DNA of 34,822 nt, taken from assembly GCA_014860745.1 (NCBI GenBank), contig JACZJC010000046.1:1-34822 (forward strand), given 5' to 3'. Position 1 is the stretch's first letter. Each line of letters starts with the position of its first letter. This document shows, in pieces, positions 20,167-32,926 of the stretch. A model generated the notes under the pieces. The model saw only the letters and a list, made by a program, of their open reading frames with translations. It searched no databases and was not told the DNA's origin. The DNA comes from Anaerolineales bacterium. Lineage in GTDB: Bacteria > Chloroflexota > Anaerolineae > Anaerolineales > Villigracilaceae. The position numbers and the translations under genes are program-made.

Positions 20167-22455
20167 ATGAAGAAGTCCATCATTGGGGCAGGCATCGGCT
20201 TGCTCCTTCTTGTCTCTTTGCTTTTGCCTGCTCCCTCTTCGGTGTATGCACAAGCCACCACGATCTATTCCACGAATTTCAACAGCGGTTACAGCGGCTG
20301 GACCGCGAGTGGCACGGTGGATGGCGTCGCCACACCGTCCATTCAACCCAACTCCGTACGGATGCGCGGCACGGCGGGCATTACCAGAACGATCTCCACT
20401 GTCGGGTATACCGGCATTTCCGTCGCATGGAATATGGCGGCCTCCTCTTTGGAAAGCGCCGATCATTGTTATGTGGAGGTCAACACCGGCAGCGGTTGGA
20501 CTGCCATCGGCACGTTGAATGACGGGCAGGATAATTCCACGTTTTTCAACGGCACATCGAACAATATTGCAGGTGCCGGCCAGAACTCAAACTTCCAGGT
20601 GCGGTATCGCGGCAATGGCGCCACCACCGGCGATTATTGTTATGCCGAAGATATCACAATCACTGGCACATCCGGGTCCGCCCCCACCAATACACCCACA
20701 CCAACCTCCACGCCGCAGGGTCCCACACCCACACCGCCGCCCGGCGGCTCAGTCCCTGGCGACCCGCTCACCGGCAATGGCAGCGTCACTCGCACATTGC
20801 TGACCTACAATGACCTGTTCAACGGCTCGAGTACCGCGCCGGTTGACGACAGCGCCTTCGCATTGCCCGCCAATGCCGCCATGCCCGATCATGTCTTTGA
20901 AGGCCGCCTCGAACTTTTGAACGAAGCTACCAGCGGCGGTTTTTCCGAAGTAAAAGATACCTATCGGTACACCGGGAGCGGCGATAACCCGCGCAAACAT
21001 CTGCCGGAGTTCAGCTTTGAGTTCGTACAAAATGGGAGTCACTTGATTCCTGTGACACAGGGTCTCATTTACACCGGCCATCCCTACTGGAATTACATCG
21101 TCGGTCCGGGACGGGTATGGAAGGAGAACAGCGACAATGGATATTCGCGCGCGGCCTTCCCGTTCGCCATCGTCCAACGCAACGCGAACTGCACCCACAA
21201 CGGCGTGATGACCTTCCTATTCAACAACAGCGGCATCTCAAAAGTCCGCTACCAGATCACGCAGGAGACCTGCGTCTATTACAAGATCAATATGTGGGGA
21301 CAATTGAACGGGACCTATTCCGCCTACTCCGTAACCAACGCCGCGACTTACAAAGCGAACCATGCCGCGGAAGTGGCAAACCGCCTCCCGACCAGGCCGA
21401 TAGCTGATCTTGCCATCGATTATCCGGGTTCTGGCGTGAACATTTCCAACTTTGGCAGCGGCGTCACCCCGGCCCACATGACCTATTACGGCGTGATCAT
21501 CAACGGCACGAATTACGTTTCCGGCTGCAACACCCGTTATGGCACATACGCATTCTGCGAGAATCTCCGCGCTCCATCCTACTCGACGGCCAAGTCGGCA
21601 TTTGCGGGGGTCGCCCTCATGCGACTTGGTCAAAAATATGGCACGGGAGTCTATAACTTGCTTGTCAAGGATTATGTGCCGGAGTACACCTCCAGCATCG
21701 GCACATGGACGAACGTGACCTTCAACAACACCATCGACATGGCGACCGGAAACTATCGTCTCGCCGGATATGAATCCGATGAGGCCGGTTCCTACATGGA
21801 AACCTTTTTCCTGGCCGAGACCTACACCGACAAAATGACCGCCGCATTCAACTTCCCGTTCAAGGTCTCACCTGGAACGTATTGGGTGTATCACTCCTCT
21901 GATACCTTCATTGTGACGCGTGCCATGAACAACTACCTCCAGGCACAGGAAGGTTCCGGCGCAGACATCTTCACTATGGTGAAAAACGAAGTCTATACAC
22001 CGATCAATTTGAGTGCGGGCGCCAGTACCGTCCGCACGGATAATTCCACGACGGGCGCACCATTCGGCGGTTACGGGCTTTTCTGGACTCGGGACGATAT
22101 TGCCAAGGTTGCCAAGTTCCTCAACAACGACAACGGCTACGCAAACGGGGCGCAGATTCTCCAGTCCGCCATGCTTGTCGACTCTATGCAGGGCAACGCC
22201 TCCGATCGTGGACTCGATACTACAGGTTCCCCCGTTTTCAATTATAACAACGGTTACTGGGCAAAGAACATGACGCCTTCCGAATTCCCGCAATACACTT
22301 GTTCTTTCTATGTGCCGTTCATGTCCGGGTATGGCGGTATCACCGTCGCCATGGCGCCCAACGGAGCCACCTATTACTATTTCAGCGACAACGAGGAATT
22401 CTCCTGGTACACCGCGGTGAACGAGATGGATAAGCTCGCTCCAATGTGTCCTTGA
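20167..22455 (+). CDS. Secreted serine hydrolase (beta-lactamase / NylB-like fold) with N-terminal jelly-roll-like domain
   Basis: A 762-aa exported protein. A signal peptide ends near 'SVYAQA' (about 28). Residues 32-170 form a Thr/Ser/Gly-rich beta domain, perhaps carbohydrate- or surface-binding. A Pro/Thr linker ('TPTPTSTPQGPTPTPPP') spans about 176-196. The catalytic half has S473 and K476 in 'YSTAKSAF' (the SxxK motif), Y575-H-S577 in 'WVYHSSDTF' (YxN-like position), and a late 'SGYGG' loop. This order matches serine beta-lactamase-fold hydrolases, including esterases and 6-aminohexanoate-dimer hydrolase. 'aaaggag' precedes the ATG. With importer and amidase upstream, an outside amide or ester hydrolase is plausible. 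Substrate is unknown. Confidence 0.75.
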   Translation: MKKSIIGAGIGLLLLVSLLLPAPSSVYAQATTIYSTNFNSGYSGWTASGTVDGVATPSIQPNSVRMRGTAGITRTISTVGYTGISVAWNMAASSLESADHCYVEVNTGSGWTAIGTLNDGQDNSTFFNGTSNNIAGAGQNSNFQVRYRGNGATTGDYCYAEDITITGTSGSAPTNTPTPTSTPQGPTPTPPPGGSVPGDPLTGNGSVTRTLLTYNDLFNGSSTAPVDDSAFALPANAAMPDHVFEGRLELLNEATSGGFSEVKDTYRYTGSGDNPRKHLPEFSFEFVQNGSHLIPVTQGLIYTGHPYWNYIVGPGRVWKENSDNGYSRAAFPFAIVQRNANCTHNGVMTFLFNNSGISKVRYQITQETCVYYKINMWGQLNGTYSAYSVTNAATYKANHAAEVANRLPTRPIADLAIDYPGSGVNISNFGSGVTPAHMTYYGVIINGTNYVSGCNTRYGTYAFCENLRAPSYSTAKSAFAGVALMRLGQKYGTGVYNLLVKDYVPEYTSSIGTWTNVTFNNTIDMATGNYRLAGYESDEAGSYMETFFLAETYTDKMTAAFNFPFKVSPGTYWVYHSSDTFIVTRAMNNYLQAQEGSGADIFTMVKNEVYTPINLSAGASTVRTDNSTTGAPFGGYGLFWTRDDIAKVAKFLNNDNGYANGAQILQSAMLVDSMQGNASDRGLDTTGSPVFNYNNGYWAKNMTPSEFPQYTCSFYVPFMSGYGGITVAMAPNGATYYYFSDNEEFSWYTAVNEMDKLAPMCP

Positions 22456-22683: not shown

Positions 22684-22699
22684 TGTAACAAAAGTCACT
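22684..22699. promoter_or_regulatory. Crp/Fnr-type palindrome at about -41.5
   Basis: 'TGTAA-CAAAAG-TCACT' matches 8 of 10 positions of the Crp-type consensus TGTGA-N6-TCACA. Its centre (22691.5) lies 41.5 bases upstream of the start of transcription predicted from the -10 box at 22721, the standard place for a class II activator site. The window itself encodes a Crp/Fnr-family regulator at 32243. Confidence 0.55.
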
Positions 22700-22747: not shown

Positions 22748-22763
22748 TGTGAAATAAGACACA
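22748..22763. promoter_or_regulatory. Second Crp/Fnr-like palindrome in the leader
   Basis: 'TGTGA-AATAAG-ACACA' matches 9 of 10 consensus positions and lies at about +16 to +31 of the predicted transcript. A site there would more likely repress than activate. Could be chance in an AT-rich leader. Confidence 0.4.
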
Positions 22764-22784: not shown

Positions 22785-22943
22785 ATGACCGAAAAGGAAA
22801 AGCAAGAGAACGAAACTGCCACCAAATGGCAGAAAATGTTCGACAACATCTGGCTGTTATTTGTACTCTCATTGTTGATCAGCACCCTCATTTATAACGT
22901 ATGGGGAATATTCGACCTGTTGAACGTTCCACCCGCCCCATAG
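22785..22943 (+). CDS. Small single-helix subunit of the heme-copper enzyme
   Basis: A 52-aa protein beginning 'MTEKEKQENETATKWQ', with a charged cytoplasmic start and one hydrophobic helix at about 22-43 ('IWLLFVLSLLISTLIYNVWG'), ending 'NVPPAP'. The ribosome site 'aaaggag' is 9 bases before the ATG, and 'aaggag' for subunit II follows 4 bases after the stop. One-helix small subunits (such as subunit IIa of ba3 oxidases) are encoded in this position next to subunits II and I of B-family heme-copper enzymes. It probably packs against subunit I or II. It is easily missed because of its size. Confidence 0.8.
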   Translation: MTEKEKQENETATKWQKMFDNIWLLFVLSLLISTLIYNVWGIFDLLNVPPAP

Positions 22944-22960: not shown

Positions 22961-23497
22961 ATGTTAGCACCTGAAAAAATCTGGTGGAAGCCCCTGGGCC
23001 GCATGGAAAAGACATGGCTTACGGTGGCCTTTGTCTGGTGTGTGTTCCTGACCCTGATGATGCCGCTTTGGTATTTCATGGGCAAACAGAACGTGCCCAC
23101 CGAAACGTACCGCACCACACCTGCCCAATTCAACGAGAAGGTTCAGGCATTCACTGAACAATACAAGATTGGCGAGGATACCATCAACGGCGTGACCCTG
23201 CCCGTGGTGGAAGCGCCTCCCGGCAGTGACGTATACCTGCGCGCCAGCACCTGGCAGTGGTTCCCCATTTTGCAGTTCCGCAAAGGCGAGACCTACCGCC
23301 TGCACATCTCTTCGATGGATTTACAGCATGGCTTCTCGCTTCAGCCTGTGAACATCAATTTGCAGATCCTGCCCCAGTATGATTATGTGGCGACCATCGT
23401 TCCCACTTCCACAGGCGAGTTCACCATTGTCTGCAATGAATTCTGCTCGCTCGGTCATCACACGATGATCGGCAAAATTATCGTGAAGGAGAAATAA
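22961..23497 (+). CDS. CuA-containing subunit II of a B-family-like heme-copper enzyme
   Basis: A 178-aa protein with one N-terminal transmembrane helix (about 20-41) and an outer cupredoxin domain (about 85-178). The binuclear CuA site is complete: H123 in 'DLQHGFS', then C158, E160, C162, H166 and M169 in 'CNEFCSLGHHTM'. It accepts electrons from an outer donor (cytochrome c or a small copper protein, none encoded in the window) and passes them to subunit I. A single helix instead of two is typical of B-family (ba3-like) enzymes. ATG 22961 has 'aaggag' 7 bases upstream; the stop is immediately followed by the start of subunit I. Confidence 0.93.
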   Translation: MLAPEKIWWKPLGRMEKTWLTVAFVWCVFLTLMMPLWYFMGKQNVPTETYRTTPAQFNEKVQAFTEQYKIGEDTINGVTLPVVEAPPGSDVYLRASTWQWFPILQFRKGETYRLHISSMDLQHGFSLQPVNINLQILPQYDYVATIVPTSTGEFTIVCNEFCSLGHHTMIGKIIVKEK

Positions 23498-23498
23498 G

Positions 23499-25226
23499 AT
23501 GGCAGCCCTTGCTCCCACAACTCCCTGGACCAGCGGCGCAAAAGACGATTACCGTGTCTGCGGCGTGACCACCCTCAAAGTGGATATGCACACTGAACGC
23601 CTTATCATCGCCAATGCGGTGATGGCGGTGGTCTGTCTTGTGCTTGGCGGTATCGCGGCATTATTGATCGCCCTCACCCGCTGGCAGGCTGTCCACCTGC
23701 TCGATGCCACCTGGTTCTATCGCCTGCTCACCTTGCATGGCATTGACATGCTCATCGCATGGATCGTGTTCTTTGAAATGGCAGGCTTGCATTTTGGTTC
23801 CACAGCCCTGCTAAACGCGCGTCACGCCGCCCCAAAACTTGCCTGGACTGGCTTTATCATGATGACGGTCGGCGGTTTGATGGCGAACTTTGTGGTGCTG
23901 ATCGACCCCAAAAGCACGGTCATGTTCTCGGCGTATGTGCCGCTCAAGGCTCACCCGCTGTTCTACCTCAGTTACATCCTCTTCGCCGTCGGCGCGTTGA
24001 TCACCACCATCACCTTCTTCATCAACATCGTGGTCGCCAAGCGCGAGAAACGTTTTGAAGGCTCGATGCCGCTGGCAGTTTTCGGCCTGATGACCGCTGC
24101 CATCCTCGCGGTATACACCCTGCTCGAAGGCGCAATCGCGATCGTGCCGGCTTTCCTGTGGTCGCTGGGCGTATTCCCCACATATGACCCCGGCATCTAC
24201 CGCAACTTCTTCTGGGGATTTGGTCACCCAGCCCAACAGGTCAATCTCGCGGCGATGGTTTCCATCTGGTATATGCTCGCGCAGATGACCACCGGGATCC
24301 GCCCCGTCAACGAGAAATTCTCACGCCTCGCCTTCATCCTTTACCTGTTCTTCATCAATCTCGGCTCCGCTCATCACCTGTTGGTTGATCCCGGTCTTTC
24401 CTTCGCGTGGAAGGCTGTCAACACATCCTACGCCATGTATCTCGCCGTGCTTGGTTCGATGATGCATGCCTTCTCCATCCCCGCCGCCATGGAAATAGCC
24501 CTGCGCGCCAAAGGACACAACAAAGGCTTGTTCGGCTGGCTGCGCAACGCTCCCTGGGGTGAACCCGGCTTCTCGGGCCTGGTCATGTCCATGGTCCTCT
24601 TCGGCTGGATCGGCGGCGTCACTGGCGTGACCATCGGCACCGAGCAGATCAACATGCTCGTTCACAATACCATGCGCCTGCCTGGTCACTTCCACGCCAC
24701 TGTCGTCGGCGGCACAACCACCGCCTTCATGGCGTTCACCTACTACGTCATCCCGCTCATCTTCCGCAAGGAACTCAAACTCAAGAAGTGGGCGGTCTGG
24801 CAGCCTTACGTGTACGGCGTCGGCTCCGCGCTTGTTTCCCTGGGCATGATCACCAGCGGCTTGCAGGGCGTCGCCCGCCGCAACTGGGACATCACCTTTG
24901 CCGGCGTCGTCCCCGGCACCGTTGACCTGACCCTCGCCATCTTCGGCATCGGCGCGCTCATCGCAGTCACGGGCGGCATCATGTATGTCACCATCGTGCT
25001 TGTCTCCATCCTCACCGGCGAGCGCAAGGAAGCCACCAACATGCTCCTCGTCAGCGGCACGAACAACCCACTGCTCGAATCCACCCAACTCACCGACGAG
25101 CAAATGGAAAGCAAACAGAATCAACCCAAAGGCACACTTGTTCTCGTCTTCGCCTTCCTCGTCTGGTTTGCCGTGTATTATCTTACCAACTGGTGGCTGC
25201 TCGGACGCACCTGGTTCATACGCTAA
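23499..25226 (+). CDS. Catalytic subunit I of a B-family-like heme-copper enzyme lacking the active-site Tyr; probable nitric oxide reductase
   Basis: A 575-aa protein with about 13 helices. Heme and metal ligands are all present: H80 ('TLHGIDM') and H399 for the low-spin heme, H397 for the active-site heme ('GHFHATV'), and H243, H292, H293 for the second metal ('GHPAQQ', 'SAHHLLVDPG'). The segments 'HHxxxDPG', 'GLFGWLRNAPW' and 'VHNTxxxPGHFH' align with ba3-type oxidases. In those, the sequence HPxxY supplies the Tyr cross-linked to a CuB His; here that position is Q247. Loss of this Tyr argues against O2 reduction and fits the CuA-type nitric oxide reductases described outside the cNOR/qNOR group (such as those named bNOR or eNOR). 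The nearby NnrS gene supports this. Substrate and second metal (Fe or Cu) are inferred. Confidence 0.88.
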   Translation: MAALAPTTPWTSGAKDDYRVCGVTTLKVDMHTERLIIANAVMAVVCLVLGGIAALLIALTRWQAVHLLDATWFYRLLTLHGIDMLIAWIVFFEMAGLHFGSTALLNARHAAPKLAWTGFIMMTVGGLMANFVVLIDPKSTVMFSAYVPLKAHPLFYLSYILFAVGALITTITFFINIVVAKREKRFEGSMPLAVFGLMTAAILAVYTLLEGAIAIVPAFLWSLGVFPTYDPGIYRNFFWGFGHPAQQVNLAAMVSIWYMLAQMTTGIRPVNEKFSRLAFILYLFFINLGSAHHLLVDPGLSFAWKAVNTSYAMYLAVLGSMMHAFSIPAAMEIALRAKGHNKGLFGWLRNAPWGEPGFSGLVMSMVLFGWIGGVTGVTIGTEQINMLVHNTMRLPGHFHATVVGGTTTAFMAFTYYVIPLIFRKELKLKKWAVWQPYVYGVGSALVSLGMITSGLQGVARRNWDITFAGVVPGTVDLTLAIFGIGALIAVTGGIMYVTIVLVSILTGERKEATNMLLVSGTNNPLLESTQLTDEQMESKQNQPKGTLVLVFAFLVWFAVYYLTNWWLLGRTWFIR

Positions 25227-25299: not shown

Positions 25300-25965
25300 A
25301 TGATCGCATCTCTCCTTCTCGGTCTGCTTGGAAGCCTCGGTCACTGTGTGGGGATGTGCAGCGCCATCATCATTCTCTTCGACCGTCAGCCCATTTTTCA
25401 AAACAAACTCGCGTGGTTCCTTGCCCACGCAGGCCGCGTCACCACTTACGCCCTGCTCGGCCTCCTCTTCGGCATCATCGGCCAAACCCTCTGGTCATTC
25501 GGAAACCTGCAAGCCATCCTCTCCATTCTTTTTGCAATCATTGCCTTTTATATGGCATCCGCCTTTATCGGATTGACACCCTCTCCTGAACTTTTATTTT
25601 CCGGATGGATTCAACGCTGGGGACGCGCCATCCGCAATTTCAAAACCGCCTCTCTCTGGACCTCCTACCTGCTCGGCCTGCTTTGGGGACTCCTCCCCTG
25701 CGGCCTCGTTCTGACCGCGCTCATCACAGCAGCTGCCTCCAAATCAGCAGCGCTTGGCGCAATCAACATGCTTGTCTTCGGCATCGCCACCGTCCCAAGC
25801 CTCTTCGCCGTCAAATGGCTGGCGCAAAAATCCAGCGCAAGGACATGGTCGCGCAGCCTCGCCTCTCTCGTCATGATGTTCTTCGGCTTTCAATTCGCCA
25901 TGCGCGGATTTGCGTCATTGGGACTGGTAGATCATTTCATGCTTGGCTCATTCATGTTCTGGTAG
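25300..25965 (+). CDS. SafE/TauE-family six-helix membrane protein
   Basis: A 221-aa protein with about six helices. It begins 'LLLGLLGSLGHCVGMCSAI', the hallmark of the SafE-type branch often encoded beside cytochrome oxidase copper genes (CcoH/CcoI neighbourhoods), and contains the second hallmark 'LWGLLPCGLV' at about 127-136. Paired Cys in 'GHCVGMC' and the 'PCG' could handle copper or sulfur compounds. The ATG at 25300 has no strong ribosome site and follows a stem-loop. Its place between subunit I and a copper ATPase suggests metal-centre assembly. The transported ion is unknown. Confidence 0.82.
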   Translation: MIASLLLGLLGSLGHCVGMCSAIIILFDRQPIFQNKLAWFLAHAGRVTTYALLGLLFGIIGQTLWSFGNLQAILSILFAIIAFYMASAFIGLTPSPELLFSGWIQRWGRAIRNFKTASLWTSYLLGLLWGLLPCGLVLTALITAAASKSAALGAINMLVFGIATVPSLFAVKWLAQKSSARTWSRSLASLVMMFFGFQFAMRGFASLGLVDHFMLGSFMFW

Positions 25966-26001: not shown

Positions 26002-28353
26002 ATGCAACTAACCAACTATCAAACTGCCAAACTCACTTTCACCTGCTCCCTGTGTGGATTGACTACTCTGCATCCCCTCACCAATGGCCGCGGCGATGTC
26101 TTCTGCTGTCCCTCCTGCAAGGAAGTTTCCGCATTGCTGGAGGAATCCCCTGCAAAACCAACTATCCTTGCAAATGAAGCGGACGCCGAAAATATAACCC
26201 TCACCCTCGGCGGGATGTGGTGCTCCTCGTGTGCATGGCTGGTGAGTGAACAGCTCAAGCGCACCAAAGGCGTGATGGATGCGGAAGTCAGTTTCATTCA
26301 ACAGCAAGCCAACCTGACCTTTGACAGTGCTATCACCAATCCCAAATTGCTCAAGAAACGCGTGCGCTCGCTCGGCTATCAGGCCACTCTTCCCAACGAA
26401 AAACCGCACGACGAAGAAGAATCATTTTTCACCCGCCTGCTGATCGGCGGCGTGATGGTCCTGCATGACCTGATCGTTGGAACAGGAATCTACGCGCGCG
26501 AAGTTTTCGGCTGGGTCACACCCGAATCCCAGCCGCTCGTGGACTTCTTCCAGGTGATGATGCTGGTTACCAGCATTCCCGTTCTGCTCCTGCTGGGCTT
26601 GCCGATTCTTCGGGCGGGTTTCGCCAGCCTCCTGCGCGGACAACCCAACATCCACACCCTCATCACCATCGGCACGTTTTCGGCATTTGGTCTTTCCGTT
26701 TATCACCTCATCGTAGGTCATGGCGGGCTGTACTTTGATACAGCCACCATGCTCATCTTTTTAGTTTCCATCGGGCGCTGGCTTGAAATGCAGGCGCACG
26801 CGTCCAACAACAAAGCCGTGATGAAATTGCTTGAACAGATTCCTAACACAGCCAATGTTGTCACCAGTGAGATGGATAAGACCGTCAAGGTCGCCGACCT
26901 AAAACCCGGGATGCGCGTCCGCATTCGACCCGGCGAACGATTCCCCGTAGACGGTCTCATCGCCACTGGCGAAGGGGATGTGGACGAATCCCTGCTGACC
27001 GGTGAACCCAAACCCGTCTCCTACCACGAAGGGGATGCCGTCAAAGCCGGTACGATCAATCTCGACGGCAGTTTTGAAGTCATTGCCACAGCGGTCGGCG
27101 AATCCACTACAGCAGGGCAGATCGGAAGATTATTGCACGAAGCGCTATGGGCGCGTTCTCCGTTGGAACGGCTGGTGGACAAACTGTCTGCGTGGATGAC
27201 TCCCATCGCACTGGCTCTCGCAACCATCGCCTTCCTCGTCTGGAATTATGTCTCGGGCATTGAAACGGGCTTGCTTGTCGCGTTATCCGTCCTGCTGATT
27301 GCCTGTCCCTGCGCGCTGGGGCTTGCCACTCCTCTCACTCTTTGGCTGTCACTGGAACGCGCCGCTGAATCAGGCGCGATCCTGCGAAGCACCGCCGCAC
27401 TTGAACGGCTTGCAAAAGTGGACAAGGTTTTCTTCGATAAGACAGGCACGCTCAGTCAATTGCCGATGAAGGTGCATGAAATCAAAGAAGAAAAAGGAAA
27501 TAATTTTCTTCAGATTGTCGCTTCTGTTGAAAACGAGTCAGAACATCCCCTGGCAAAGGCAATTGTCGAATTCGCAAAAACAAAAAATATCGAGCTCATC
27601 AAACCAGCCTCCTTCAAAGCGTTACCCGCTCTCGGCGTCATCGCCCAATTACCAATCTCCAATCTCCAGTCTTTAATTACCATCGGTTCCGCGCGCCTTA
27701 TGTCTGCTGAAGGGTTGGAAATGCCGCATAATATCGATCAACAGGCCGAGGCTTGGAAAGAAGCGGGTCTGGTCGTCGTCTATGCCGGGTGGGCAGGAAA
27801 AGTCAGAGGGATTGTGGGGTTAGGAGAGACGGTCCGCGCGGAGGCAAAAGGGGTCATCGTGGAATTGCAGTCGCGCGGGCTGAATCTCGGCGTGTTGACA
27901 GGCGATGAGGCCGGCGCGGGTAAGAGATGGCAGAGCGCGCTGGGCATTCCCGTGCAAGCCGCGCTCACGCCGGATGAAAAGATGAACCGGCTTGCGGAAA
28001 ATGCCGCCATGGTCGGCGATGGAATCAATGACGGGCCCGCGCTCGCCGCCGCAACGGTAGGCCTGGCGATGAATCACGGAACCGATGTGGCGCGCACCGC
28101 CGCCGATATTGTTTTGATGCGCGATGATTTGAACCTCATCCCCTGGCTGATCGACCTTTCGCGCGAGTCGATGAAGCGCGTAAAACAAAATCTGGGCTGG
28201 GCTGTAATTTACAACCTGGTCGGCGTCATCCTCGCAATGGCAGGATTGTTACAGCCTGTTTTTTCAGCCTTCGCGATGATCGCGAGCAGTATCTTCGTCA
28301 CGAGCAATGCGATGAAGATGAATAAATTTCCGTTGTTGAATGAAAAAGATTAA
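26002..28353 (+). CDS. P1B-type copper ATPase of the CcoI/FixI (CopA2) class
   Basis: A 783-aa pump. An N-terminal Cys4 ribbon (C15, C18, C35/C36, C39) is followed by one heavy-metal domain with 'GMWCSSCAWL' (C74, C77), a pattern typical of CcoI/FixI rather than plain CopA. Then come membrane helices, actuator 'TGE' (333-335), intramembrane 'CPC' (435-437), phosphorylation D479 in 'DKTGT', nucleotide-binding 'SEHP' and hinge 'GDGINDGPA'. CcoI-type pumps export copper slowly for the assembly of heme-copper enzymes. Position after subunit I and SafE fits CuA (and perhaps active-site metal) loading. No clear ribosome site precedes the ATG. Confidence 0.93.
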   Translation: MQLTNYQTAKLTFTCSLCGLTTLHPLTNGRGDVFCCPSCKEVSALLEESPAKPTILANEADAENITLTLGGMWCSSCAWLVSEQLKRTKGVMDAEVSFIQQQANLTFDSAITNPKLLKKRVRSLGYQATLPNEKPHDEEESFFTRLLIGGVMVLHDLIVGTGIYAREVFGWVTPESQPLVDFFQVMMLVTSIPVLLLLGLPILRAGFASLLRGQPNIHTLITIGTFSAFGLSVYHLIVGHGGLYFDTATMLIFLVSIGRWLEMQAHASNNKAVMKLLEQIPNTANVVTSEMDKTVKVADLKPGMRVRIRPGERFPVDGLIATGEGDVDESLLTGEPKPVSYHEGDAVKAGTINLDGSFEVIATAVGESTTAGQIGRLLHEALWARSPLERLVDKLSAWMTPIALALATIAFLVWNYVSGIETGLLVALSVLLIACPCALGLATPLTLWLSLERAAESGAILRSTAALERLAKVDKVFFDKTGTLSQLPMKVHEIKEEKGNNFLQIVASVENESEHPLAKAIVEFAKTKNIELIKPASFKALPALGVIAQLPISNLQSLITIGSARLMSAEGLEMPHNIDQQAEAWKEAGLVVVYAGWAGKVRGIVGLGETVRAEAKGVIVELQSRGLNLGVLTGDEAGAGKRWQSALGIPVQAALTPDEKMNRLAENAAMVGDGINDGPALAAATVGLAMNHGTDVARTAADIVLMRDDLNLIPWLIDLSRESMKRVKQNLGWAVIYNLVGVILAMAGLLQPVFSAFAMIASSIFVTSNAMKMNKFPLLNEKD

Positions 28354-28360
28354 ACACAAA

Positions 28361-28421
28361 GGACACGAAGTACACAAAGGTAAAACAGTTTTCCTTCGAG
28401 ACCTTTGTGGCCTTCGTGTTT
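28361..28421. repeat. 'acacgaag / cacaaagg' palindromic repeat
   Basis: 'acacgaagtacacaaaggt' (28363-28381) and 'acctttgtggccttcgtgt' (28401-28419) are near-perfect reverse complements. A hairpin can form between the ATPase stop and the cytochrome b fusion start. It lacks a T-run immediately after, and 'aaaaaagga' following it serves as the ribosome site. Confidence 0.7.
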
Positions 28422-28434
28422 AAAAAAGGAACTC

Positions 28435-30498
28435 ATGACACTTCCCAACCCCTACGCACAACGCAAAACTCTCCGTACGTTCGAAAAAATTTGGACAAGG
28501 CTCGAAGGCCTGGTAAACCGATTCACAAAATCGGATTTCAACCCGTTTTATCACCTCGGCACCTTGACCATTTTCATGCTTCTCGCGCTGCTTGCAACCG
28601 GCGTATACCTCACCGCCATTTATCGCCCCGGCCTCGATGTGGCTTATGCCACCGTCGAAAAAATCGACTCGAACTGGTTCGGTTCGCTCATGCGCAGTGT
28701 CCATCGATACGCAAGCGACGCGATGATTCTGCTCATCATTTTGCACCTGCTCAAAATGCTGTTCAGCGACAAATTCTGGGGGCAGCGCTGGCTGGCATGG
28801 ACCAGCGGCTGGATCATGCTGGCGGGCGTGTGGCTGACGGGCACCTTCGGCTATTGGCTGGTTTGGGACCTGCGCGCGCAATGGATGACCGAATACATGA
28901 TGGAAACTCTCGCGGGCACGTCGGGCCTCACTTATGTCGCCGCCGACATCGAGTCGCGCACGTTTTCCAACTTCGTCATCATCATCTTTTTGCATGTCTT
29001 TCTGCCGCTTATCGGATTCCTTGGCATTTACATCCACGGCCTGCGCCTTTCCCGCGCACGCTGGTGGTCTCCACGCTGGGTCAGCATTCAGGCAGTCATC
29101 GGGCTGGTGATTCTTTCGCTCATCAAACCCGTACAATCTTTTGCGGAAGCCGACCTCTCCACCCTCATTCAGTCCGTGCCGATGGACGCGTATTACCTCG
29201 GCTTTCTTCCATTGATAGACCAATGGAGCAATATGATTTTCTGGGCTCTGGCAATTCTCGTCGGCGGGAGTTTGTTCCTGCTCCCCTGGCTCGCCTCGGG
29301 GCGTGACCCTGGGCCTGCCATCGTCACCGATCCGCAGTGTACTGGCTGTAACATTTGCTACGCCGAATGTCCGTACGATGCCATCCGCATGGTGGACCGC
29401 GACGATGAGACGAAGTATCAAAAACTGGCCATCATCAATAATGCGCAATGCACAGGCTGTGGGATTTGCGTGGGAGCCTGTCCTACCGACGCTATTAATT
29501 TACATGGCGGGTACAACAGCGAACAGGTCTTTAGCGCGGTCAAAGGCGCATTGCACCGCGAAAAGAAGGAAGGGAATCCCGTCACGGTTTTGTTTGCAAG
29601 CCAGCGCGATGAAGCGCTGGGAAGCCTGCCGGCGCGATTAATTGTCGGGGAGAAAAATGTTCCCGTTGCTGTATCAGCCTGGGGGGATGGCGGGGCGGCG
29701 CGCATCGTCACGGCTGTGCTTCCCAGCACGAGCGCGGTCAATATTGAATGGGTCAAGTCGCTGAACAGCGAAGGCGCGCGCGATGTTGTCATCCTTGCAC
29801 AGCCGTATGATGACAACTTGAACCGCGAAGACACGCATTGGATTCTGAACCGCCTGCATTTGCGCCCCGCACTGGTGACAAAAGACCTGCACTGGCTCGA
29901 GGCCACACCCGGCGACTCGAAAACGGTTGAAAATTACCTGAACAATCTGCACAAACCTGAAACGCAGGCGAAAAAATCCGCGCCCCTTTTGCCTGAAGTG
30001 AAAGAACGCAGTAAATTGATTCCTTCCCTGGTGAGCGGTTTGGTCGGAACCGTACTTCTGCTTGGGTTGTTCGCGCTGGCCCTGCCGCTGGACATTCCCG
30101 CCGGGATGAAAGCCGCGGAGCAAAGCGCGCTGCGTGTGGCGCTGGATGCCAAAGGCAGGATCGAAGTCTCCAATATTCCCGAAGGGGTGATCCTGCCCGA
30201 AGGTGCCGATCCCGTCAAGATTTTCGGCGGCACTCATTTTCCCATCAGCCTGCGCGTGATTGTGGACGGCAGAACGATCCTGGATGATACCTACAAACCC
30301 TCGGGAATCAGCGGCAACGGGCGCATCTCTGCACTGGAATTTTTAGTGATCGAACCAGGCACACATCAAGTGGAAGTGTGGATGAAGGACGACTCGGGCG
30401 ATTACCGCCTGTCGTATTCAGGCGAGGTGAATTTTGAAAAAGGCAGGGCATTGATCCTTGCGTATGATGAAAAGTTGGATACGTTCGTGTTGAGGTAA
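28435..30498 (+). CDS. Cytochrome b / 2x[4Fe-4S] ferredoxin / Rossmann-like fusion protein
   Basis: A 687-aa membrane electron-transfer protein. Residues 40-203 form a cytochrome b6-like four-helix core with two bis-His heme b pairs, H90/H104 and H187/H201, each 13 residues apart. Two more helices follow (about 217-235, 265-287). A double [4Fe-4S] ferredoxin is complete at C302/C305/C308/C312 and C339/C342/C345/C349. Residues 365-500 look like a Rossmann-type domain, faintly MvhD/FlpD-like but without Cys. A helix near 543-563 and a C-terminal beta-rich domain end the protein. The ATG at 28435 has 'aagga' just upstream. It may link quinone and cytoplasmic ferredoxin or NAD(P)H pools to the operon's enzyme. 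I know no named family with this full order. Confidence 0.85.
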   Translation: MTLPNPYAQRKTLRTFEKIWTRLEGLVNRFTKSDFNPFYHLGTLTIFMLLALLATGVYLTAIYRPGLDVAYATVEKIDSNWFGSLMRSVHRYASDAMILLIILHLLKMLFSDKFWGQRWLAWTSGWIMLAGVWLTGTFGYWLVWDLRAQWMTEYMMETLAGTSGLTYVAADIESRTFSNFVIIIFLHVFLPLIGFLGIYIHGLRLSRARWWSPRWVSIQAVIGLVILSLIKPVQSFAEADLSTLIQSVPMDAYYLGFLPLIDQWSNMIFWALAILVGGSLFLLPWLASGRDPGPAIVTDPQCTGCNICYAECPYDAIRMVDRDDETKYQKLAIINNAQCTGCGICVGACPTDAINLHGGYNSEQVFSAVKGALHREKKEGNPVTVLFASQRDEALGSLPARLIVGEKNVPVAVSAWGDGGAARIVTAVLPSTSAVNIEWVKSLNSEGARDVVILAQPYDDNLNREDTHWILNRLHLRPALVTKDLHWLEATPGDSKTVENYLNNLHKPETQAKKSAPLLPEVKERSKLIPSLVSGLVGTVLLLGLFALALPLDIPAGMKAAEQSALRVALDAKGRIEVSNIPEGVILPEGADPVKIFGGTHFPISLRVIVDGRTILDDTYKPSGISGNGRISALEFLVIEPGTHQVEVWMKDDSGDYRLSYSGEVNFEKGRALILAYDEKLDTFVLR

Positions 30499-30508
30499 GC
30501 TCGAATCA

Positions 30509-30548
30509 CACAGGCTCACAAAGGGATTAACCTTTGTGAGCCTGTGTA
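30509..30548. terminator. Bidirectional terminator between convergent genes
   Basis: A perfect 17-bp stem (30509-30525 / 30532-30548) with a 6-base loop lies between the convergent stops at 30498 and 30566. Poor T-runs on both sides, but position and strength favour transcript end formation. The arms use the 'cacaaagg' words of the local repeat family. Confidence 0.75.
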
Positions 30549-30565
30549 TATTGAGCGGCGATTTT

Positions 30566-31066
30566 TTATCCCTTCGGCTTTTTGTTATAAACAATCACAA
30601 ACCCAATCAAAGCCACAACCAACACTCCGAACGGAATCCATGCCAGCAATGCCCGTTGGACAAGCACACTGCGAAATGGCGCTTCGGCTGCTGGATTGGC
30701 GGCATACCATTTACCATCGTATTCAGAAGAGCCTTCCACCAACCCGTCGTAATAGACATAGCCTGTGTATGGGTAATAATGCAATTGATCGAACGGCAGG
30801 TCCTTGGGTTTGCTGTCGGTAAACTCCACGTACACACGCACGACCTGGTAGCCCTGCCCAGGGTTAACGGGCGCAGGCACTTCACCCTGCGAAAAATCGG
30901 CAAAGGCAAAGAAATCCTGCGTGAGAGCGGGGTTGGTCACATTGATCTCGCCCGTAATGCCCGGTCCTTTGATGGTGATGTAATCGAACCCGCCTTTCGC
31001 AAAGACCAGCGCGGATGGGATGAATAATCCCAGGGCAAGCAATAGAATGGAATATTTTTTGAACAT
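30566..31066 (-). CDS. Secreted membrane-anchored protein of unknown function
   Basis: A 166-aa protein with a signal sequence ('SILLLALGLFIPSALVFA', about 5-22), a beta-rich outer domain containing 'KGPGITGEINVTNPAL' and 'YYPYTGYVYYDGL', and a C-terminal helix (about 143-161) ending in 'YNKKPKG'. It should sit on the outer face of the membrane. The ATG at 31066 has 'ggag' 7 bases upstream; a TTG two codons earlier is less likely. It is the only minus-strand gene in this half, divergent from the NnrS gene, so the two may share control. I do not recognise the family. Confidence 0.75.
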   Translation of the reverse strand: MFKKYSILLLALGLFIPSALVFAKGGFDYITIKGPGITGEINVTNPALTQDFFAFADFSQGEVPAPVNPGQGYQVVRVYVEFTDSKPKDLPFDQLHYYPYTGYVYYDGLVEGSSEYDGKWYAANPAAEAPFRSVLVQRALLAWIPFGVLVVALIGFVIVYNKKPKG

Positions 31067-31155
31067 CTGCAATCTCCGTAATGGGATATTTTGATTTTAC
31101 ATGATTGTTCTAAAAAATCTGTGACGGAAGTCCGTTTTGGTGGTTAAATATACTC
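31067..31155. promoter_or_regulatory. Divergent promoter region of the anchored protein and NnrS genes
   Basis: An AT-rich 89-base gap between divergent starts. 'taaata' at 31145-31150 sits immediately before the NnrS ATG, and no ribosome site precedes that ATG, so NnrS may have a leaderless or very short leader mRNA. 'TGTGA-CGGAAG-TCCGT' at 31120-31135 is a poor Crp/Fnr-like site (7 of 10). Only suggestive. Confidence 0.35.
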
Positions 31156-32253
31156 ATGAAAATCACGCCCAACCGCTTTCCCATCCCCTTTCTTTTTCTC
31201 GCCATCCTCGGTCTGCTCGCCGCATTGTGGGCGGGCCTCATGCGCCTCGGATGGCAGCTGCCTGCGCTGACTCCCTCCCTCGCCATGGCACATGGCCCGC
31301 TGATGATCTCTGGATTTTTGGGAACGTTGATCACCCTCGAGCGCGCAGTCGCGATGAAGCAAAAGTGGATGTACCTTTCCCCGCTTCTTTCCGGACTGGG
31401 GTGGCTGGTCACCATTCTGATTAGGGGTCTTCCGCTGGGGCCAGTTATGCTCACTCTTGCCAGCCTCGGTGGAGTTGCCATCCTCGCAGAGATCGTTCGC
31501 CGCGAGTATGCAATACACACCGTCACCATGCTTCTCGGCGCATTGGCATGGCTGACGGGAAATGTTCTCTGGCTTTCTGGCTGGCAAATTCATCAAGTCG
31601 TATTTTTCTGGATGGCGTTTCTTGTGCTGACGATTGCAGGCGAACGGTTGGAACTTAGCCGCGTCTTGCGTCCTTCGAGAATTCAGCAAATTCTATTCGC
31701 TGGAATCGTCGTGATTTTTCTGGCAGGGATTTTGCTTGCGATGATCAATTTGCAGGCGGGCACACGACTCAGCGGGCTGGGGTTGATTCTGCTTCCGCTT
31801 TGGTCATTGCGCAATGACATTGCCTGGCGCAACATAAAACATAAACTTCCGCTCACCCGTTATATTGCGTGGTGTCTTGCGCTGGGATTCGTCTGGCTCG
31901 GCATCAGCGGCGGATTAAGCCTGTTGTTCGGCGCACAGGTTGCAGGTCCAAGATATGATGCGGTACTGCATGCGGTCTTCGTCGGCTTTGTCATTTCGAT
32001 GATCTTCGGTCATGCGCCCATCATCTTCCCCGCCATCCTCGGAGTGCCGATCAATTTCCAGCCTGCGTTTTACATCCATCTGGCGTTGCTGCATGGCTCG
32101 CTTGCCCTCCGCGTTTTCGCCGATTATGCCAACCTGCATGCATGGCGGATGTGGGGCGGATTGCTGAACGAGATCGCCATTTTCATTTTCATTGGAATGA
32201 CGGCTTATTCGGTTCGGAAGGGTTTTGCGGAGGCATCCCGGCATGCAGGCTGA
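31156..32253 (+). CDS. NnrS-family heme-copper membrane protein (nitric oxide stress)
   Basis: A 365-aa protein with about 11-12 helices. It carries the family signature 'AMAHGPLMISGFLGTLITLERAVAM' split across 42-70 and a later 'LHAVFVGFVISMIFGHAPIIFP' with conserved His residues. NnrS proteins are heme- and copper-containing membrane proteins found with nitrite and nitric oxide reductase genes; they relieve nitrosative stress in the bacteria studied. This gene overlaps the Crp/Fnr regulator by 11 bases, linking regulator output to nitrogen-oxide metabolism. The assignment rests on the His/Gly/Glu-Arg signature; no gene name is given because the family contains several groups. Confidence 0.82.
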   Translation: MKITPNRFPIPFLFLAILGLLAALWAGLMRLGWQLPALTPSLAMAHGPLMISGFLGTLITLERAVAMKQKWMYLSPLLSGLGWLVTILIRGLPLGPVMLTLASLGGVAILAEIVRREYAIHTVTMLLGALAWLTGNVLWLSGWQIHQVVFFWMAFLVLTIAGERLELSRVLRPSRIQQILFAGIVVIFLAGILLAMINLQAGTRLSGLGLILLPLWSLRNDIAWRNIKHKLPLTRYIAWCLALGFVWLGISGGLSLLFGAQVAGPRYDAVLHAVFVGFVISMIFGHAPIIFPAILGVPINFQPAFYIHLALLHGSLALRVFADYANLHAWRMWGGLLNEIAIFIFIGMTAYSVRKGFAEASRHAG

Positions 32254-32926
32254 TATTCTCCTCAAACGAATGCAGGCATTCGAGTTCCTGCGCGGGCTGG
32301 ATCATGAGACGCTTGCACAGCTTGCGGCGGGCGCGCTTTGGAAGGTCTTTCCGCCGAATGCGGTTGTTTTTTGGGAGGGGGATGTGGAAAGCAATTTATT
32401 CTATCTGCAATACGGTTCGTTGAAGGTGCTGCGGTCGTCAGTGGATGGGCGCGAACAGGTGCTGCGATTCATCGATACCGGCGAGGTGTTCAACGAAGTG
32501 GGTGTGCTCGCCAATAAGCCAAACCCCGCAACAGCTGTTGCGCTGGAAGAATCGGGCATCTGGCTGATTCCGCGCCATGCTCTGGAAAAAGTGGTTTTGA
32601 CTCACCCGCAAACCGCCTTGCAGATCATCGAAAACATGGCGGATAAAATCATCAGCCTCGTTACGCTCGCTGCGGATTTATCGCTCAAGTCGGTGGAGGC
32701 GCGATTCGCCAAATTACTTCTGGATCAAGCCGAGGGGGATGTGATCGAACGCCGCCGCTGGACGAATCAAACCGAGTTGGCGGCACATTTGGGGACAGTG
32801 CCCGACGTGCTAAGCCGCGTCATCCGCGAGTTGACGAAGGCGGGGTTGATTGAGATGGACAGGCAGCAGATCCGTATTTTGGATCGCGCACGGCTGGCCG
32901 AGCGGGGATTGATACAGGACGAATAA
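32243..32926 (+). CDS. Crp/Fnr-family transcriptional regulator (Cys-less)
   Basis: A 227-aa regulator. An N-terminal cyclic-nucleotide-binding-like barrel (about 15-120), a dimer helix (about 120-150), and a winged helix-turn-helix (about 165-220) with 'TNQTELAAHLGTVPDVLSRVIREL'-type sequence over 171-196. The recognition helix has D-x-x-S-R, close to the Fnr E-x-x-S-R pattern. There are no Cys residues, so an Fnr [4Fe-4S] oxygen sensor is excluded; a heme-type (DNR-like) or other sensor is possible. ATG 32243 has 'ggagg' 9 bases upstream and lies within the end of the NnrS gene. It is the natural candidate for the palindromes at 22684 and 22748. Confidence 0.92.
   Translation: MQADILLKRMQAFEFLRGLDHETLAQLAAGALWKVFPPNAVVFWEGDVESNLFYLQYGSLKVLRSSVDGREQVLRFIDTGEVFNEVGVLANKPNPATAVALEESGIWLIPRHALEKVVLTHPQTALQIIENMADKIISLVTLAADLSLKSVEARFAKLLLDQAEGDVIERRRWTNQTELAAHLGTVPDVLSRVIRELTKAGLIEMDRQQIRILDRARLAERGLIQDE

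Follow-up and report, generated by a model that had tools for sequence, protein, structure and literature searches.

A gene cluster for a probable eNOR-type nitric oxide reductase in an Anaerolineales bacterium

Here we describe a gene cluster of an Anaerolineales bacterium that very probably encodes an eNOR-type nitric oxide (NO) reductase, composed of a small one-helix subunit, a subunit with a CuA site and a heme-copper catalytic subunit. It lies in a window (the whole stretch of DNA that was analysed) of 34,822 nucleotides, contig JACZJC010000046.1 of assembly GCA_014860745.1. Judged from its sequence, the enzyme probably gives its host the ability to make the greenhouse gas nitrous oxide (N2O). 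The eNOR family is already known, so the kind of enzyme is not new; it has reportedly been dealt with by Hemp and Gennis (2008). We assign the enzyme to eNOR because of the published Gln residue of that family, the cupredoxin subunit and the branch that it takes in a tree. The genes and sites of the operon and its surroundings are the following:

22684..22699, + strand: palindromic Crp/Fnr-like site TGTRAC-N4-GTYACA with one mismatch, 101 nt before the first gene
22748..22763, + strand: second Crp-like site TGTGAAATAAGACACA, 37 nt before the first gene
22785..22943, + strand: small one-helix subunit of 52 aa, an unlisted gene with relatives at the same place
22961..23497, + strand: subunit II with the CuA site, recognised by its CuA ligands and by CoxB and NosZ cupredoxin-end matches, all below cut-offs
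23499..25226, + strand: subunit I, the heme-copper catalytic subunit with Q247 for Tyr (probable eNOR), from Pfam and PDB matches, alignment and tree
25300..25965, + strand: DsbD_2 membrane protein (PF13386, 140 bits)
26002..28353, + strand: heavy-metal P-type ATPase of the copper type (TIGR01511, 476 bits, over cut-off)
28405..30498, + strand: cytochrome b / 2x[4Fe-4S] fusion protein with a C-terminal helix and an extra domain, from family matches and homologues
31156..32253, + strand: multi-helix membrane protein of 365 aa without family match, a possible downstream member by its position
32225..32926, + strand: Crp/Fnr-family regulator (cNMP_binding, HTH_Crp_2), a candidate regulator of the operon

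Subunit I is an ORF of 575 aa with an ATG start. It matches Pfam COX1 with 217.8 bits, and its top sequence matches in the PDB are 7deg and the Thermus thermophilus ba3 chains. The six heme and metal His ligands named by an earlier, sequence-only reading can all be read directly in the protein; going by ba3 oxidase, we take H80, H397 and H399 to bind the hemes and H243, H292 and H293 to hold the second metal. Likewise present are the B-family landmarks it had listed (HHLLVDPG, GLFGWLRNAPW and VHNT...PGHFH). Its key observation, a Gln in place of the Tyr of HPxxY, was confirmed as well: Q247 is H243+4 and aligned to Tyr237 of ba3 (a number counted on the PDB alignment, in which tagged chains run 6 ahead of 1ehk). 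Among 86 aligned rows the residue at H+4 is Gln in 62 and Tyr in the other 24, the compared oxidases. Not all of these rows are separate genomes (L050/L025, L054/L042, L052/L023 and L053/L024 look like the same ones), and five rows were left out before counting: two copies of the window (L002, L047), two with a broken frame (L036, L038) and a partial one (L039). Q246 and Q247 stand together in 62/62 rows of the Gln group, where 23/23 B-family rows have Val and Tyr; besides Q247, the residues Q246, N249, E93, Y282, N308 and H323 are each invariant in the group (62/62). An assembly or sequencing error at codon 247 was rejected, since the Gln is kept in all 62 group rows. These span Anaerolineales-type loci and MAGs named Nitrospirae, Nitrospinales or Nitrospinota (L041, L043-L046), and are also found on plasmids of Thermomicrobium roseum, Thermus thermophilus and Defluviimonas. 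The frame-broken subunit I copies of L036 and L038 belong to two MAGs and are possibly assembly errors. On two Thermus thermophilus plasmids (L078, L079) the GHFH of the helix X motif is replaced by GHFK, which presumably puts a Lys where the low-spin heme has its axial ligand; ligation of this heme by Lys would be out of the ordinary.

According to Table A4 of PMC8756737, the residue at this position differs by family: Gln in eNOR, Asn in sNOR and CuANOR, Asp in gNOR and Glu in cNOR and qNOR. The residue found here is Gln, and not the Tyr of ba3, the Asn of bNOR and sNOR, the Asp of gNOR or the Glu of cNOR and qNOR. Other likenesses to eNOR are the CuA subunit immediately upstream, a B-family-like subunit I, the occurrence in Anaerolineales and, in some relatives, an adjoining NirK. 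No excluding difference was found, although the copper-handling pair and the cytochrome b/ferredoxin gene are absent from those parts of the eNOR descriptions that were examined. In passages of PMC8756737 members of the Anaerolineales are reported to have eNOR together with a cupredoxin subunit, PMC4653789 describes an Ardenticatena eNOR in an operon with NirK, and a section of PMC11388526, citing Murali et al. 2024, places eNOR among the biochemically characterised families. The general statement that CuA-type NO reductases apart from cNOR and qNOR have been described is borne out by the published eNOR. The bNOR (CuANOR of Bacillus azotoformans) is also a CuA-containing NO reductase related to B-family oxidases, but it has Asn, not Gln, at the active-site position (PMC8756737, in the same passages) and is reported only from Bacillota in the section of PMC11388526 concerned, whereas our enzyme comes from Anaerolineales. 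The ba3-type B-family O2 reductases of T. thermophilus and Aquifex share fold, six His, CuA and landmarks, but the present enzyme has HPxxQ for HPxxY, N249 for Trp, H323 for Thr312, a new E93 and a branch of its own. With cNOR and qNOR it has in common the presumed reaction and the missing Tyr at the same place; they carry Glu there and a cytochrome c or fused quinol subunit, in contrast to Gln and a CuA subunit.

For a tree, 51 of the 86 rows were used; the 31 Gln rows form one branch in it (support 100/99), with 19 B-family Tyr rows and the A-family row of the host genome on its other side. The placement among NO reductase references that had been proposed was achieved in part, with B-family, Gln-group and one A-family row in the tree and no rows of bNOR, sNOR or gNOR; sequences named eNOR by their describers are not among the rows either, and eNOR membership here means the diagnostic residue plus the branch. 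The tree is rooted on a single, very distant A-family row, to which the program warned of a long branch, and the direction of the Tyr/Gln change depends on this one outgroup row. Of the suggestion that the enzyme was recruited from a B-family oxidase, the side-by-side position of the Gln and B-family groups holds, while the direction is only suggested.

A profile of 12 Gln-group members matched ba3-type oxidases best (7deg, E 4.2e-54), with no cNOR, qNOR or cbb3 chain among its 39 PDB matches (E up to 10). The structure model of subunit I is a middling one (pLDDT 65.5, pTM 0.74), and its residues 291-300 and 377-398 fall below 50, too weak to place Q247; the solved folds nearest to it in a fold search are again ba3-type chains (TM-score about 0.74). 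That the closest solved structures are ba3 oxidases speaks for an alternative in which the enzyme is a B-family O2 reductase whose Tyr is functionally replaced from another helix, as in C-family oxidases. Y282 and Y311 would be in favour of it too, both being invariant in the Gln group (62/62) and not Tyr in the B-family rows, as would a paralogue of the cytochrome b/ferredoxin gene beside Tyr-type B-family oxidases (see below). However, position 286 (H292-6), where we take C-family oxidases to carry their Tyr, is Ile in 61/62 rows, so that a Tyr from helix VII in the C-family style was rejected, and Y282 precedes H292 by ten residues, a distance along the helix that is probably too great. As the genome has another oxidase with Tyr, and NirK co-occurs with the Gln-group enzyme, we regard O2 reduction as improbable. 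For an eNOR, one conserved proton channel would be expected. At the K-channel positions, which we take to be Thr312, Ser309, Tyr248 and Tyr244 in ba3, the Gln group has H323 at Thr312, with S320 (Ser309) and Y258 (Tyr248) retained; subunit I has Val at 254 where ba3 has Tyr244.

The CuA site that the sequence-only reading had claimed is complete in subunit II (22961-23497). Its ligands H123, C158, C162, H166 and M169 are present in 62/62 Gln-group rows and E160 in 60/62, with Asp in the other two; the comparison set for this subunit counts 23 rows including the dropped L036 and L038, hence 21 real ones. By position and size we liken the 52-aa protein to the small third subunit of ba3 oxidase, subunit IIa. 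Its gene lies 701-736 nt upstream of subunit I, with 58-90% identity, in 36 of the 37 Anaerolineales-type loci (L005-L040, L042), and the sole miss, L039, is cut off there. Weak matches occur in L043-L046, L055, L064 and L065, and the same test found none in L041 and L056-L063; short annotated ORFs stand at its place in L077-L080. On the other side of the core genes, the DsbD_2 gene (25300-25965), which we take to be a probable copper-maturation gene, follows subunit I in 36 of these 37 loci and is absent in L042. The copper-type ATPase (26002-28353), presumably resembling CcoI/FixI, is found downstream in most of them and is absent, despite enough flank, in L005, L009, L013, L030 and L042; that L005, the closest relative, is without it beside eNOR was counted against the NO reductase reading.

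Homologues of the 365-aa membrane protein occur downstream of the operon in L028 and L105 and elsewhere, on the other strand, in L019. The protein has no PHROGs match and no Pfam match even at E 10, and its gene overlaps that of the Crp/Fnr regulator; as a mere impression, it may be a remote NnrS-like protein. A PHROGs search with four unassigned proteins of the window gave no matches of use. The ORF at 30536-31027 on the + strand was rejected as an operon gene, given that the reverse strand (30566-31072) holds a plausible membrane protein of 168 aa, which has no family match over cut-off. Just upstream of the operon lies a gene for a probably secreted protein of 762 aa (20167-22455) without Pfam, NCBIfam or PHROGs match.

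The genome context also fits NO as the substrate. The host genome is 98.24% complete and has NirK (340 bits, over cut-off); NirS was not found in it with a model that finds NirS in 7 of 251 genomes, and neither of two NosZ models gave a match over cut-off, only short cupredoxin matches (no control genome reached the cut-off). With PF00115 the genome yields, besides this enzyme, a second oxidase and two weak fragments, the latter in short membrane proteins near a Crp/Fnr gene, and thus no other NO reductase candidate. The other oxidase is of the A-family and has the Tyr; its best match, CtaD, scores 604 bits, below the cut-off of 671. From its gene content, the genome looks like that of a nitrite-to-N2O organism in which no N2O reductase was found. 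The proposal of an alternative CuA-type NO reductase is supported by this presence of NirK without another candidate, by the published Gln of eNOR and by the single branch (100/99). The NirK gene, on contig C70 (L113 2321-4087), has a Crp/Fnr gene immediately before it; its product shows multicopper matches and, in an extra N-terminal stretch, weak matches to cytochrome c that stay under cut-off.

Across the phylum, 19 of 251 genomes carry a Gln-group enzyme (matches of at least 45% identity, residue checked in the alignment). NirK was counted only over its curated cut-off, which retains 35 of the 72 genomes with E <=1e-40; it is present in 11 of the 19 carriers vs 24 of the 232 others, and the genomes being related and not independent, Fisher values for this co-occurrence overstate the case. 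Genomes with a Tyr-type B-family oxidase and without eNOR are not enriched (nitrite reductase in 4/17), and in the family to which the window belongs, nitrite reductase is not clearly commoner with eNOR (7/8 carriers vs 4/7 others). NirK lies directly upstream of the same three eNOR genes in G088 and 4 kb from eNOR on the same contig in G047, and on a Thermus plasmid a DUF542 gene and an annotated nitrite reductase lie no more than ~5 kb from the eNOR copy. Seven of the 19 carriers are without nitrite reductase (no NirK over cut-off, no NirS), as might be expected if enzymes of the group had moved to another gas or served in detoxification or sensing without respiratory NO reduction, and according to passages of PMC8756737 the role of eNOR homologues may be divergent or generalised; but all metal ligands and CuA are kept, pointing to a working electron-transfer enzyme, and such a role is most unlikely.

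If the enzyme is an NO reductase of the eNOR type, electrons of a soluble donor would enter at CuA and reach the binuclear site by way of the low-spin heme (H80/H399); this site would consist of the heme with ligand H397 and the second metal held by H243, H292 and H293. Here two NO would be reduced to N2O and water, with protons that might come from the cytoplasm via the changed K-channel. The enzyme would follow NirK, so that nitrite is converted to NO and NO to N2O. Splitting O2 takes an extra electron and proton, which the Tyr supplies, whereas NO reduction can do without them; a Gln at the Tyr place would hence be tolerated. Where this Gln stands, cNOR has an iron-binding Glu, and the Gln probably tunes or ligates the second metal. 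Fe and Cu were both considered for that metal; we lean to copper, because the operon has two probable copper-handling genes and NorQ/NorD-type proteins, for which a role in inserting iron is given in the abstract of PMC9976466, had no match among the ten window proteins scanned.

How the operon is regulated might be indicated by its promoter. If up to 2 mismatches are allowed, 34 of the 40 upstream regions compared contain the palindrome, in 33 cases between -91 and -116; the reversed pattern occurs in 0/41, and shuffles give 1.49/41 expected. The 40 regions are the 41 rows minus L110, which is the window again; seven presumed duplicate loci, small-gene identity <60% and flank <200 nt had been left out beforehand. 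Near-duplicates remain, and shared ancestry accounts for part of the conservation. At the second site, TGTGA-N6-TCACA with up to 1 mismatch is found at -28 to -42 in 19 of the 40 regions; strict FNR and CRP consensus patterns, searched in the window, gave no hit in the eNOR operon promoter. A Crp/Fnr-type regulator is the natural candidate to bind the palindrome, and relatives of the one encoded here lie near eNOR in L006 (on the other side and the other strand) and L038. As a genome-wide regulon mark the palindrome was rejected, being hardly commoner than its reversed control in the host genome (core pattern, 4 strand hits at 3 places vs 2; full pattern, 2 vs 2). On contig C66 of this genome (L111 2844-5990) the same palindrome stands before genes for membrane proteins of 201 aa and 488 aa, which have no Pfam match over cut-off, and an FGE-sulfatase domain protein.

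The assignment also bears on how such genes are annotated. The four Gln-type plasmid loci inspected (L077-L080) are all annotated as cbb3-type cytochrome c oxidase subunit I, and passages of PMC8756737 likewise note eNOR homologues named cytochrome c oxidase in records. Owing to these oxidase names, carriers may pass for organisms without NO reduction, and the N2O that they give off may go unnoticed. Among named relatives L005 (isolate AMX68) is the closest, at 94% identity; its name is also that of a MAG from an anammox reactor in PMC9942424, a study whose nitrogen section mentions nitric oxide reductase for MAG RH21 only.

The operon gives two leads, its promoter site and the cytochrome b/ferredoxin partner, of which the partner is the most worth following. 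The fusion gene, whose true start may be an ATG 30 nt inside the ORF, encodes a protein with H100, H114, H197, H211 and eight Cys that are kept in 29/29 long homologues. Extra Cys after the ferredoxin part are present in the distant L080, L041, L046 and L097 and absent from the window protein. Nine of the 251 genomes of the phylum have the fusion gene, and all nine also carry eNOR (10 of the 19 eNOR genomes are without it); in the window's own family it is found in 8/8 eNOR genomes vs 0/7 others. It lies at most 7 kb from eNOR in eight of the nine and on a separate contig in G064. It is located downstream of eNOR in 28 of the 37 loci (L005-L040, L042); L011, L012, L022, L031 and likewise L009 end at about or before its expected start, and it is absent there in L005, L013, L030 and L042. 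Homologues follow eNOR also in L041, L043-L046 and the Defluviimonas plasmid, and in three genomes (L115, L116, L117) a second, longer copy adjoins a Tyr-type B-family oxidase. No published description of this pairing was found in the literature consulted; Murali et al. 2024 may contain one. Tentatively, the fusion protein might be a dedicated electron-input module for B-family-type heme-copper enzymes that takes electrons from a cytoplasmic ferredoxin-like donor or menaquinol and hands them to eNOR, with its paralogue serving Tyr-type B-family oxidases, and so bypasses bc1 or alternative complex III. If this possibility were true, NO reduction would be wired by a route other than either of these complexes.
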